Below, piece by piece: positions 25,017 to 29,088 of a stretch of DNA of 64,000 nucleotides. Each line of letters opens with the position of its first letter. The first letter of the stretch is position 1. A program made the translations under genes and the position numbers. The DNA is taken from contig SDUX01000006.1 in NCBI GenBank assembly GCA_008729055.1, forward strand, positions 1,001,501-1,065,500. The letters are read 5' to 3'. The stretch is from Pyropia haitanensis. Lineage: Eukaryota; Rhodophyta; Bangiophyceae; Bangiales; Bangiaceae. The notes under the pieces are model-generated. The model worked only from the letters and a program-made list of their open reading frames with translations, was not told the DNA's origin and made no database searches.

Positions 25017-26222
25017 CTACAGCCCCCGCCGCCAGCCGCAAGACGGCGCCACCGTTACCGCCTCTGCCGCCACCGCCGCGCCGCTGTCGCCGCCTACAGC
25101 CGCCGCCAGTGGCCAGTAAAACGTTAGCCCCCGCCCCCGGTTGCGCGACGTGGTGCCGCCGCCGCCGCCGCCGCCGCCGCGCCACCGACGCCCCCCCCAG
25201 CCGCGGCTGCCGCGCCGGCCGGCGGCGGCGGCGGCGCGACGCCCGGCGGCGGCGGGGCGGTGGTCGCGGCGGCGGCGGCGGCGGGTGCCCCCCCCCCACC
25301 CCCCCCCGCCCCCCCCCACAAAAGTGGGCATGAAGCTTGCCATTGATGGTCGGGAGGGCTCCCGCCCCCCCTGCGTCCCCCCCCCCCCCGCTCCCCCCGC
25401 GTAGACCGCGGCGAGGCGCTCGGCGGCCTCGGCCACCTCCCCCCCCTCGCTGTCGGCGAGGCCGAGGCCGCCCACCCAGCCGCTCATGTCGCGGCCGGCA
25501 AAGCAGCCCGCCACCACCACCGCCGCCGCGGCCAGCACAAACGGCGGGAAGAGGAGCAGCACGTCCGCGCCGCCGCCCGCGTCGTTGAGCACCGCCCACG
25601 CGACGGGGAGGAGGTCCGCCGTCACGCTGTGCCCGCCGCCCCCACCCCCGCCGCCGCCGCCGCCGCCACCCCCACCCCCACCGCCACCCCCGCCGCCGGC
25701 ACCACCACCGCCGCTGCCGCCCGACGCGGCCAGCGCCGGCAGGTCCCGGTGCGGCGACCAGACGATGAGGTCAAAGTGGAGCCCCGCGGCGAGCGTAAAC
25801 TCCGCGCGCACCACGTCGGCGACCGTGTACGGGTACTTTTCCCCGCCCGGCGACGGCGTGTAGTGGGCGGCGGCGGCGGCGACGACCGCCTTGGCCGGCA
25901 CCGTGTGCTCCTCCGCCTTGGCGGCGAGGTAGAGGGCCACCGGCGCGAGCAGCCGCGGGTCCGCCGCCACGTACGGGGAGCGGGTGTAGAAGCGCGCAAA
26001 GTAGACGGCGGCGGTCGACGCGACGCGGGCGCGGAGGCCGGCCTTGCGCGCGGCGGCGACGAGGAAGGCGGCGGCGGCGCGGGGGATGGCGGCCAGCTCG
26101 GCGGGCGTCGCGCCGAGGGTGGCCGCGTCGGTCGCGCGCGCGGCGGTGCGGGTGTGGGAGAGGGCCGCGGCGGGGTGCAGCCAGTGGCGGTAGTGGGTGG
26201 ACGTCCAAAAGTTGGCCGCCAT
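25017..26222 (-). CDS. CCNC: Cyclin C, Mediator kinase-module subunit
   Basis: Partner of CDK8 in the Mediator kinase module, regulating RNA polymerase II transcription in the nucleus. ATG at 26222 gives the diagnostic cyclin C N-terminus MAANFWTSTHYRHWL. The first cyclin box has ARVASTAAVYFARFYTRSPY and LAPVALYLAAKAEEHTVPA. The second region has YTVADVVRAEFTLAAGLHFD, LIVWSPHRDLPAL, then LLPVAWAVLNDAGGGADVLL and FPPFVLAAAAVVVAGCF. A poly-Gly insert of ~30 residues sits between the two boxes at about 25640-25700. Cyclin C usually ends around 280 residues; here the frame runs to 401 with a Gly/Arg-rich tail, perhaps from a missed stop or a homopolymer error. No intron is needed. Confidence 0.88.
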   Translation of the reverse strand: MAANFWTSTHYRHWLHPAAALSHTRTAARATDAATLGATPAELAAIPRAAAAFLVAAARKAGLRARVASTAAVYFARFYTRSPYVAADPRLLAPVALYLAAKAEEHTVPAKAVVAAAAAHYTPSPGGEKYPYTVADVVRAEFTLAAGLHFDLIVWSPHRDLPALAASGGSGGGGAGGGGGGGGGGGGGGGGGGGGGGHSVTADLLPVAWAVLNDAGGGADVLLLFPPFVLAAAAVVVAGCFAGRDMSGWVGGLGLADSEGGEVAEAAERLAAVYAGGAGGGGTQGGREPSRPSMASFMPTFVGGGGGGWGGGTRRRRRRDHRPAAAGRRAAAAAGRRGSRGWGGRRWRGGGGGGGGTTSRNRGRGLTFYWPLAAAVGGDSGAAVAAEAVTVAPSCGWRRGL

Positions 26223-27552
26223 CGTTGCCGGGCGCAGAGACGGCGGGAGGGGGAGCGGGAGGCAGGTCGGCGAGGGAGGAAGGAATGGACAAGGGGATAG
26301 AGTGCAACAGCAGAGGAACGAACAGGAAAGCGGACGGGGAGCTGGCAAAGGGGGAGGACGGAGCGGAAAAAGGAGACGGGGAGGGGGGGGTTGGGCGCAA
26401 AGGAGATGGACGGAACGTAGCGGCAGAGGGATGAACAGGAAGACGGATGGGGAGCCCGAGTGGGAGTGGGAACGGGGGGTGCAAATGGTAAACAAGGCAC
26501 GGGGAGGGGCGGAAGCCGACGCAAGAGGAACACAAGTGTTGGGGAGGCGGCGACGGGGAGCGGGAAACGGAAGGGTATACGACTCGGCGCGTACGATGTC
26601 GTACATGCCTTGGTCTGTGCCCGGCCTTCCTTGGCTGCCACTCCTGAATTCAGCGGTTGGCGACCCGGTTTCAGAAAATCACCTCCTGAATTCTCTGCTA
26701 AAAACAGTCCTTTTGAGAGGGCTGGGTCGCCGGTCGCGCCCGTGCCGCCGCGGCGCCGTCACCATTGATGCGCGCCGTGACGGCCGACCTCCGGCGGTCG
26801 GTCGCCACCACCGCCCCCTGCTCTGTTTCCACCACCCCCTCGCCGCAGCGGGACCGACCGTCGTTGCCGTGACTACTGCTGACCGCCGAGGGCGGTGGGC
26901 CCGGCGCGGCGGCGTGTCGGTGCCACCACCGCCGCCGCCGCCGCCACTTCCACCGCCGCTGCTGCCGCTGCCGCCGCCGCCGCCGCCGCCGTCCACGCCC
27001 GCGCCCTGACGACGACGCGGGCAGCCGCGGTCGCGTCCGTGGCGGCCGCCCAGCAGGCTGCCAGCGCCACCGCCGCCGCTGCAGCTGCCGCGGCAGCGTA
27101 CGCTTTGTTGGCGCCGGCTGGACGTTGCCCGCGACCGCCGCCTGGCCGTGGGCTCACGGCCACCGCCGCCGGTCCCGTACCTGGCGGCAGCGGCGACGGC
27201 GGCGGCAGCCGCGGCAGCCGCGGCGGGGGGCGGCGTCCACGTGGCCAGGACCAACACCAACTGGGTTCGCGTCGATACGGGCGCGTGCCCCGCTGCTGAC
27301 GGTGTGGGCCGCCCGTGCTGGGCGTCACCCCAGTGTCCTCCCCCCCCCTCTCGTATGGATGCGAGCATTCAAGGACGCACGAAAAAGTAACACATGGCCG
27401 TGTCTTGGCCGGCTGGGTCCCCTCTTCCCCGCAGCGGACGGCGCGCGGGGAGCCCATGACGCCGCCCCGCGGTGCCCCATCCCCTGACGTAACCGCCCGT
27501 CCGCCGTCCCCACTCGACCCCCCCATCGTGGCCGCCCGTCTGGCTCCTCCCC
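26223..27552. other. Intergenic, possible small fold-back near 26.65 kb
   Basis: Leader region of cyclin C, purine-rich on the plus strand, then a small AT-richer patch at 26640-26740 with two CCTGAATTC copies and inverted GGCGACCC/GGGTCGCC, then GC-rich trinucleotide runs. No gene recognised. Confidence 0.4.
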
Positions 27553-29088
27553 TCACCCCAGCTGTACCCTCGCTTGGGACGGCACCCCCCCCACTGGGCC
27601 CAGTGAAAAGACCGACAGCGCCGCGACAGCGGCGGACCGCGCGGCGTCGACCCACCCCCTCCCCCCCCCGTGGAGCCACCCCACCGACCGCCCCGTCGCG
27701 CGGTAGAGCGCGGCGGCAGGGGCGAGCGCGGCGCGCGCGGCCGCCACCGGCACCGCCGTCGTCCACGTGCTGACCACGTACCCGTCGACGAGGAGGTCCC
27801 CGTGGAGGGTGTGCGGGTGGTACAGCCCGGCCTCGACCACCCGCTCCACCGCCACGACGCGCGCGGGCGTTACGGAGCCGTCGGCGGCGACGGCGGGGAG
27901 GGTGTCGCCGACCGCCACCGCCGACGCGGGCGTCCGCTCGCCATTGGCGTAGACGAGGTGCCCGGGCGACGCGGTCAGCGCGCCGCCGTCGGCGGTGCGG
28001 AGGCGCACAAACGGGTGGCGGCCGGCGGGCAGCCGGTGCGACCACATGTACACGTCCGAGACGGCGCCGCCGCCGCCGACGCGGAGCGCGTCGCCGACGG
28101 CCACGTCGGCCAGCCGCACGGCGGTGCCGTCGGCGCGGCGCACCATCGCCGACGCCGGGAAGCACGCGGCGCCGCCGTCGTCGGCCGCGGCGGGCGTCGG
28201 GCTCGGCGTCGTCCGGTTGGCCGCCGCCGCCGCCGCTGCCTCCGCGGCGAGCTCCTGCACCGGCCCGTAGCACACCACCGCCCGGCCGTTGGTGTCTTGC
28301 AGCGGCCGCGCGTTGCCCGCGGCGGGCCCCTCCCCGCGGATGGCCACGAACTCGGACACCTGCACCCGCGACACGGAGAGGACGTCGGTCTGGAGGAACC
28401 AGTTGAGGCCCTCGGTGCACGGCGGGGTGGTGAGGCTGCCCTCGAGGTGACAAAAGCCGCTCTCGGGCCGCAGCGCGTTGTCCCACTCGCCCGCCGCGAC
28501 GGTCACGTTGGTCGCCGCCTTTTTCGCGTCGAGCAGCCGCTGCAGCAGCGGGTGCGGCGCGCCGAGGTAGTCAAAGAGCATGCCGACGACCGCAATCTCC
28601 TGCGTGTCGGCCGACACGTGGACGGCGTGGAGCTCGAGCGGAAACGACCGCCCGTTGAGCTTGTGCTCGGCCGGCACGTGCGCGTGCACGTCGAGCAGCG
28701 CGTAGGTGGTGTTGGCCCACTGCAGGCGGCCGCACGTGGAGTTGGAGTCGCACTGCATCGGGGCGTTGTTGGCGTTGACTTCCACGTGGAAGAGGCCGCC
28801 CTCGGGGCGCGCCAGGTCGTGCACGACCGTCTCGGTCGCCCGCGGCGGCGTCACGACCACGTCGATGGGGCTCTGCGTGTCGCCGGCGCCGCACGCGGCG
28901 AAGCGGTTGTCCAGCGCGTGCCAGTGCTCGGGCCCCGAGGGGCCGTCGTAAAACCAGGGCGGGGTGACCCCGCCGCCGGGCGCGGGCGCCGCCGCCGCGC
29001 CGGGGGGGAGGCGCAGCCCCGCGGTCGCCACCGCCGCCGCGACAGTGGCGGCGGCGGCCAGCCGCCGCGCCATGGACGACCGCGTCAT
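27553..29088 (-). CDS. Secreted alpha-carbonic anhydrase fused to a Hedgehog-type Hint domain
   Basis: Start ATG at 29088 (MTRSSMARRL; a second ATG at 29073), 511 residues. Residues ~1-36 are a signal peptide. Residues ~43-275 are an alpha-carbonic anhydrase: GPEHWHAL, CGAGDTQSPIDV, the zinc ligands in LLDVHAHVPAEHKLNG and LELHAVHVS (His ~135, 137, 154), then FCHLEGSLTTPPCTEGLNWF. It would hydrate CO2 to bicarbonate outside the cell or in the secretory pathway. After an Ala-rich, N-glycosylated linker, a Hint domain starts with the nucleophilic Cys in AACFPASAMVRRADGT (~309), followed by VRLADVAVGDALRV, the block-B-like LTASPGHLVYANGE (His ~377), VVAVERVVEAGLYHPHT and a Hog-like LLVDGYVVSTWTTAV. 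The final part (LAPAAALYRATG) resembles the Hedgehog C-terminus. One uninterrupted frame. Self-cleavage is inferred only. Confidence 0.88.
   Translation of the reverse strand: MTRSSMARRLAAAATVAAAVATAGLRLPPGAAAAPAPGGGVTPPWFYDGPSGPEHWHALDNRFAACGAGDTQSPIDVVVTPPRATETVVHDLARPEGGLFHVEVNANNAPMQCDSNSTCGRLQWANTTYALLDVHAHVPAEHKLNGRSFPLELHAVHVSADTQEIAVVGMLFDYLGAPHPLLQRLLDAKKAATNVTVAAGEWDNALRPESGFCHLEGSLTTPPCTEGLNWFLQTDVLSVSRVQVSEFVAIRGEGPAAGNARPLQDTNGRAVVCYGPVQELAAEAAAAAAANRTTPSPTPAAADDGGAACFPASAMVRRADGTAVRLADVAVGDALRVGGGGAVSDVYMWSHRLPAGRHPFVRLRTADGGALTASPGHLVYANGERTPASAVAVGDTLPAVAADGSVTPARVVAVERVVEAGLYHPHTLHGDLLVDGYVVSTWTTAVPVAAARAALAPAAALYRATGRSVGWLHGGGRGWVDAARSAAVAALSVFSLGPVGGVPSQARVQLG

Follow-up and report, generated by a model that had tools for sequence, protein, structure and literature searches.

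What is the tail of a Hedgehog protein doing at the end of a carbonic anhydrase (CA)? The question is raised by a gene, here called CA-Hog, on the minus strand of a 64,000-nucleotide stretch of the Pyropia haitanensis genome (contig SDUX01000006.1, positions 1,001,501 to 1,065,500; hereafter the window). The original prediction, made from the letters of the window alone, described one uninterrupted frame encoding a signal peptide, an alpha-CA, a linker and a self-processing Hint domain of the Hedgehog (Hog) type, and proposed that autocleavage could release the CA or attach it to a sterol, glycan or wall component. We find that the covalent fusion of an alpha-CA to a Hedgehog-type Hog domain is real and conserved. 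The residues of the tail suggest that the seaweed enzymes bearing it are anchored by a Hedgehog-like reaction.

The CA-Hog frame and its domains

The coordinates originally given for the gene are exact. No stop interrupts the frame or separates the two domains, and its translation of 511 residues corresponds to a full-length precursor of about 50 kDa (Table 1). The true start may be Met6 (MARRLA), since this second Met is where the relatives P0002-P0004 start. The expected signal-like start is present by a crude Kyte-Doolittle hydrophobicity rule, and the protein is probably secreted. When the translation was scanned against Pfam with hmmscan, PF00194 matched residues 52-272 (E 4.3e-26; 92.5 bits against a curated cut-off of 27) and PF01079 matched residues 307-458 (E 1.1e-19; 71.3 bits against 29.7), so the tail is detected as Hint/Hog by profile, as had been anticipated. 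The Hedge signalling domain is not among the three Pfam families listed for CA-Hog, the N-terminal part being PF00194, and a scan of the protein against NCBIfam matched no family. The linker ends in DDGGAA, directly before Cys309.

Table 1. Features of the CA-Hog gene, in window coordinates
Feature	Position	Strand	Basis or remarks
CA-Hog gene	27553..29088	minus	single open frame, 511 aa with stop
Signal-peptide-like N-terminus, residues 1-34	28987..29088	minus	hydrophobic stretch, crude Kyte-Doolittle rule
Alpha-carbonic anhydrase domain, residues 45-272	28273..28956	minus	PF00194, PDB matches, residues
Ala/Pro/Asp-rich linker, residues 273-308	28165..28272	minus	sequence and alignment of fusions
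Hint core, residues 309-445	27754..28164	minus	PF01079, profile to PDB Hedgehog, model overlay with 1at0
Hint core key residues			Cys309, His351 (general-base position), Ser374-Pro-Gly-His377, Ser440-Thr441 (motif J position)
C-terminal region, residues 446-511	27556..27753	minus	place of the Hedgehog sterol/adduct-recognition region; model and motif comparison
Cys309 codon	28162..28164	minus	predicted nucleophile and cleavage site (between A308 and C309)
His351 codon	28036..28038	minus	place of Drosophila Hedgehog D303 (D46)
Ser374 to His377 codons	27958..27969	minus	block B, TxxH position

Conservation and origin of the fusion

The window is GC-rich and holds 45 open frames of at least 300 residues, so the CA-Hog frame by itself is weak evidence, and a chance frame joining two adjacent genes had to be considered. 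What puts the fusion beyond chance is the two profile matches taken together with relatives of 84 and 88% identity that have the same domain order and with two paralogues. In a whole-protein search that scored 8000 candidates, nine of the 26 relatives listed carry both PF00194 and PF01079: P0002 (100% identity), P0003 (88%), P0004 (84%) and six others at 36-68%. P0004 is named at NCBI as Pyropia vietnamensis MMPV_000425, and P. yezoensis I4F81_005321 is among the six; the architecture is thus found in other red algae. The source genome (52.9 Mb, 136 contigs) has three CA-Hint loci, namely the window gene, C4:2445797-2447521 and C7:3325721-3327331. Moreover, the fusions group in the trees of both domains. 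A branch separates the nine fusion rows in the CA tree (20 domains; support 75/68; 78% of 200 bootstrap trees) and again in the Hog tree (52 domains; support 86/88; 85% of bootstrap trees). Supports are moderate in both trees, and the CA tree drew a long-branch warning (L058, P0018); P0002, P0010 and further distant matches were omitted from both trees, P0005 from the CA tree and P0008 from the Hog tree. Since each tree groups the fusions, a single fusion event followed by duplication is likely. Two separate genes read as one are rejected on this conservation, seen both in paralogues and in relatives of separate origin, and we regard a frame artefact as exceedingly improbable.

The P. yezoensis protein I4F81_005321 (P0010) lacks 61 junction residues, including the first Cys of the Hint domain (Cys1). 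P0009, which otherwise matches it, has these residues, as does the third paralogue (L003) by alignment; the gap may come from a faulty gene model or from a splice variant that omits the cleavage site. A plasmid-borne fusion was also sought and rejected: tblastn of 72,556 plasmid records returned 177, none covering 80% of the query, and the five matches listed touch the CA part only.

The carbonic anhydrase part

The N-terminal domain is an alpha-CA, as predicted. Its best PDB match by phmmer is the alpha-CA 6eki (E 3.3e-27), and the PDB matches are alpha-CAs. His residues stand at positions 135, 137 and 154, which we take to be the zinc-ligand places, SLTTPPC begins at residue 218, and E141 and T220 occupy what are presumably the places of the gate-keeper pair. 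The second paralogue (L002, P0006) and the close relatives of CA-Hog have all of these places filled, as does CA-Hog itself. At the zinc places of the third paralogue (L003, P0007-P0010) stand A, H and Q, so this CA has probably lost its activity; in L003 and P0007-P0009 the Hog residues are kept beside the catalytically doubtful enzyme. A His64-type residue, which we take to be a proton shuttle common in alpha-CAs and not universal, is absent from CA-Hog, where the region reads VNANNAPMQ. Six Cys residues lie in the CA or at its end, and Cys309 is the sole Cys of the tail. The four N-glycosylation sequons all precede the predicted cleavage site.

The genome also encodes sister CAs with no tail. 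In L004, L005, L009 and L011 the chain runs only a few residues beyond a conserved CY(G/S), with neither linker nor Hog domain, and a glycosylphosphatidylinositol or membrane tail that the Hog domain might have replaced is not evident in these four. Elsewhere, one frame (C11:7030593-7032455, covering L061, L062, L066 and L067) holds at least two tandem CA domains and resembles the multi-domain alphaCA15 reported for P. yezoensis in a passage of PMC7423979. A structure model of full-length CA-Hog was not used for the enzyme, its CA part being poor (mean predicted local distance difference test score [pLDDT] 48; 11 rows); Foldseek ranked both alpha-CAs and Hedgehog Hint at the top for this model, with a root-mean-square deviation above 10 A for the CA.

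A predicted Hedgehog fold in the Hog tail

Searched alone against the PDB, the tail matched 6tyy (1e-6), 6td6 (1.2e-5) and 1at0 (2.1e-5), all of them Drosophila Hedgehog, and no other entry at E <= 5. A profile built from 33 Hog tails of the genome matched the fly structures 6td6 (E 2.1e-25), 6tyy (4.5e-24), which carries the D46H change, and 1at0 (4.2e-22), as well as Sonic hedgehog (SHH) 7e2i (1.3e-21). The model of the tail (pLDDT 88.6) overlays the Drosophila Hedgehog Hint domain 1at0 at 1.3 A across 135 residues and then continues into two modelled helices, 448-465 (pLDDT > 90) and 478-494 (about 64). CA-Hog shares the predicted Hint fold, Cys1 and the block-B His with the Hog domain of Drosophila Hedgehog and SHH (1at0, 6td6, 7e2i), and two post-core helices are modelled in it as well, the second with low confidence. 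In Hedgehog the cargo of the Hog domain is the Hedge signalling domain; here it is an enzyme. Inteins carry a C-terminal His-Asn splice motif. An intein was rejected for CA-Hog, which has no C-extein domain and no recognizable His-Asn end, only about 66 residues with the two modelled helices following the Hint core; compared with inteins and bacterial intein-like (BIL) domains, Hedgehog is the closer fold.

The tail alignment comprises 33 non-redundant Hog loci of the genome, obtained from 37 candidates by removal of same-place copies and selected by the patterns C[FL][PS] at Cys1 and [ST]..H at block B, which dropped no locus. Invariant among them are Cys1-Phe-Pro, the block-B His and a His at the place of the general base. 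The N-terminal Cys of the Hint domain and the block-B motif were correctly assigned in the original prediction: Cys1 is C309, kept in 33/33 loci, and block B is S374-P-G-H377, its H377 kept in 33/33. In the unfiltered set 44 of 45 rows have the block-B His; the one row without it is a fragment of the split protein P0037.

The third invariant residue, H351, aligns opposite Asp303 (D46) of the fly protein; in 6tyy its counterpart is the His introduced by mutation. This His is present in all 33 aligned loci, in 20/20 further loci of the genome, and in 44/44 database proteins, the window protein included, found with a profile search that did not demand it (45 rows, one of which, the piece of P0037, is a gap). 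In the Hedgehog reaction as set out in passages of PMC9163320, the first step is an N-S acyl shift, after which fly Asp303 deprotonates cholesterol; with D303A, cleavage by dithiothreitol (DTT) persists and cholesteroylation is not completed. The D303H (D46H) work of Zhao et al. 2019, as described in parts of PMC9163320 and PMC8529194, found structure and activity kept, cholesterol transfer included, and the use of coprostanol and epicoprostanol raised. The D303H protein (6tyy) is the tail's best match by single sequence and by Foldseek and shares its general-base His, but 6tyy is a laboratory mutant, whereas every algal copy read has the His naturally.

The original prediction had pointed instead to the junction, where Ala-Cys replaces the Gly-Cys of Hedgehog, as a change that may alter cleavage. 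That suggestion is weakened, because the residue before Cys1 varies across the family: nine residues occur there in the 33 loci (A 9, V 7, S 6, T 3, E 3, D 2, L 1, N 1, G 1), Gly only once, so Ala is not special. To judge from the alignments, the Asp-to-His change at the general base is the more telling one.

Hint tails in the genome and in other algae

CA-Hog is one of many. The genome has 80 PF01079 matches, which merge into 76 places. A Pfam scan for partners covered 30 Hint-bearing frames besides that of the window (L025 and L044 of the 33 were left out), and in four of them it found N-terminal partners above the cut-off: CA (L002, L003), imelysin/peptidase M75 (L036) and DOMON (L047). Below the cut-off lay FG-GAP (L027) and extensin-like repeats (L037). 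By eye only, DOMON-type repeats also precede the Hog tail of L049, and Pro/Thr-rich linkers precede Hog tails in the genome. Of the 33 Hint frames, 21 begin with a signal-like stretch by the crude hydrophobicity rule, a count in which the L047 call is judged false and several of the stretches stop short of the protein start. Among database proteins, PF03712, which we take to be the copper monooxygenase C domain, precedes Hint in P0037, and PF02469, presumably fasciclin, precedes it in P0039. These varied partners and signal-like starts show that many apparently secreted proteins of these algae carry Hint as a tail. Contig C3 holds three near-alike Hog proteins (L023, L025, L026) in a span of about 45 kb; two of them have Asp-rich repeats resembling thrombospondin type 3 by eye.

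The general-base His also extends to the proteins P0040-P0051, one of which is named as from the green alga Monoraphidium minutum. Ten of these 12 reach the junction, where all ten read Gly-Cys, and TxxH is found there too. The diatom Pleurosigma pacificum likewise has many Hint genes in one algal genome, IPR001767 being reported in > 290 genes, with no CA partner in the relevant passages (PMC12803021).

Beside the CA-Hog gene, 10 + 10 chosen frames of the window were compared with Pfam, giving a cyclin N-terminal domain and sub-threshold SnoaL-like and zinc finger matches, none of which bears on CA-Hog. The cyclin frame (window 25017-26606, minus strand; E 4e-9) lies downstream of the gene.

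Relation to known proteins

The earlier remark that a CA-Hint fusion had not been described agrees with our search of the open-access literature, in which we found no report of one. Red-algal Hog proteins as such were described as early as 2008, when Burglin reported two Hog open reading frames each from Porphyra haitanensis and P. yezoensis (PMC2362128). In the passages of that paper concerned with them, the motif-J Cys is replaced, as it is in CA-Hog; the upstream regions, unlike that of CA-Hog, are without match in other organisms; and distinct other N-terminal domains are limited to GmGIN1 and Hoglet. The word "carbonic" does not occur in its main text. The paper also postulates an ancestral Hog, which may attach a sterol or a related group. 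The kelch-Hint proteins of Cyanidiales are likewise red-algal domain-Hint fusions through a Thr/Pro/Ala-rich linker, but, in the passages describing them (PMC9812998, PMC13353863), they carry kelch rather than CA and lie in subtelomeric arrays; one of these papers describes the function of the red-algal Hog domain as unknown (a passage of PMC13353863). On the enzyme side, sections of PMC7423979 report an expanded extracellular alpha-CA family in Pyropia yezoensis, with secreted members implicated in carbon uptake and in the dissolution and use of shell CaCO3. Most of these are said there to have one typical CA domain, and in the main text "hedgehog" is absent and the lone "hint" is a verb.

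A proposed mechanism and its alternatives

Of the earlier proposal, release or attachment of the CA by autocleavage, the autocleavage is strengthened and remains the best reading, because the Hog domain is conserved with its self-cleavage residues; the cleavage and the adduct are still predictions. The precursor very probably cleaves itself. We tentatively favour, by analogy with Hedgehog, cleavage before Cys309 followed by transfer of the CA to a sterol-like alcohol. The gene product would be a secreted precursor, its CA folding and forming disulphides in the secretory pathway. Cys309, aided by Ser374 and His377, would make an N-S acyl shift on Ala308 and so form a thioester, a first step placed between A308 and C309 because Cys1 and the block-B His are kept. 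His351 would then act as general base and activate an alcohol that resolves the thioester; the constancy of this His speaks for a second step that is conserved and involves an alcohol. The likeliest alcohol would be a membrane sterol held at the two C-terminal helices. The mature CA, whose C-terminal peptide after the cut would be TTPSPTPAAADDGGAA, would thus be tethered at the cell surface through a C-terminal sterol ester, and there, at the membrane or inside boreholes in shell, convert HCO3- to CO2 and back. Cholesterol is cited in PMC8234223 as the major sterol of 37 red-algal species and as 59.8-96.2% of the sterols of ten red algae, Bangia included, in the passages that deal with them.

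Several observations weigh against this sequence of events. In human SHH a His-Pro-Arg (HPR) motif on the first sterol helix is important in cells. Across the 33 algal Hogs the three places hold Pro in 30, Arg in 27 and His in 5, and all three CA-Hogs of the genome have Ala for the Arg (the window protein reads R-P-A), which makes an SHH-like recruitment of sterol doubtful. According to work on Porphyra and Palmaria that PMC8234223 cites, cholesterol makes up just 1.3-8.6% of sterols. Within the core, the Thr of TxxH is Ser in 16 of the 33 loci and Thr in 17, with Ser374 in the window protein, and the motif-J Cys (Hedgehog C400) is Thr441 here and Cys in a single locus of 33. Cys1 itself is unrecognizable in two of the 20 further loci (L080, L085). 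These two loci are perhaps decayed, or have an intron at the place of Cys1.

How far do these departures reach? If they reach the first step, the tail would no longer be an autoprocessor and would stay attached as a binding or structural module. The altered TxxH and motif J and the two loci without a recognizable Cys1 would fit such a module, but Cys1 is kept in 33/33 and 18/20 loci, and Cys1 and the block-B His persist in all three CA-Hogs, even where the CA has lost zinc ligands. We consider this outcome decidedly unlikely. Should the departures affect the second step alone, nucleophiles other than a sterol may resolve the thioester. Water or a small thiol would let the CA leave as a soluble enzyme, the tail having served as an aid to maturation or secretion. 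This outcome, which we hold to be somewhat unlikely, accords with the retention of the first-step residues beside the loss of the sterol-helix Arg in the three CA-Hogs, and with the fly protein, whose cleavage by DTT is independent of the general base (in the relevant part of PMC9163320). Against it stand the constant His, in all copies read, at a place that in Drosophila serves the sterol step and not the thioester step; the retention of the two-helix region; and the tail-less CAs that the genome already has.

The acceptor could also be another alcohol, such as a wall polysaccharide, a glycerolipid or some other hydroxyl, giving an enzyme covalently anchored in wall or matrix. Here the same His counts in favour, as it widens the substrate choice of the Drosophila Hint domain in the work cited above, and so do the departure of the C-terminal region from SHH at the Arg and the variety of apparently secreted proteins that bear the tail (those with imelysin, DOMON or, by eye, Pro/Thr-rich linkers). 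The Pfam scan of CA-Hog found no carbohydrate-binding family, however, and the post-Hint helices appear to resemble a lipid-facing region, so that we judge such a transfer unlikely. The identity of the adduct is uncertain, the CA tails lacking an Arg of the motif that recruits sterol, while the anatomy of the tail supports cleavage.

Significance

It is possible, though doubtful as a whole, that dozens of secreted proteins of red algae, and probably also of green algae, undergo a variant of the Hedgehog reaction that naturally relies on His, and that in the present case it anchors a CA to sterol. If so, an enzyme would be attached to sterol outside animals, and the "engineered" D46H general base would be an ordinary natural state. 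Given the constant His, natural Hogs are predicted to rely on the exchange that was found to work in the laboratory, and they may also take sterols or alcohols of other kinds. The reaction would then amount to a general protein-anchoring system of the Bangiales, one genome alone holding about 76 Hint places. CA is a convenient cargo for the question, for it has a quick assay and a well-known fold, so that cleavage and location can be read directly, and one genome supplies built-in controls in the three paralogues, one of them short of zinc ligands, and in the tail-less sister enzymes. For the alga itself, CA-Hog may explain how external CA is retained at the Pyropia surface, the shell-boring stage included: tethering would hold at the cell an extracellular activity of the kind that serves carbon uptake and shell dissolution.
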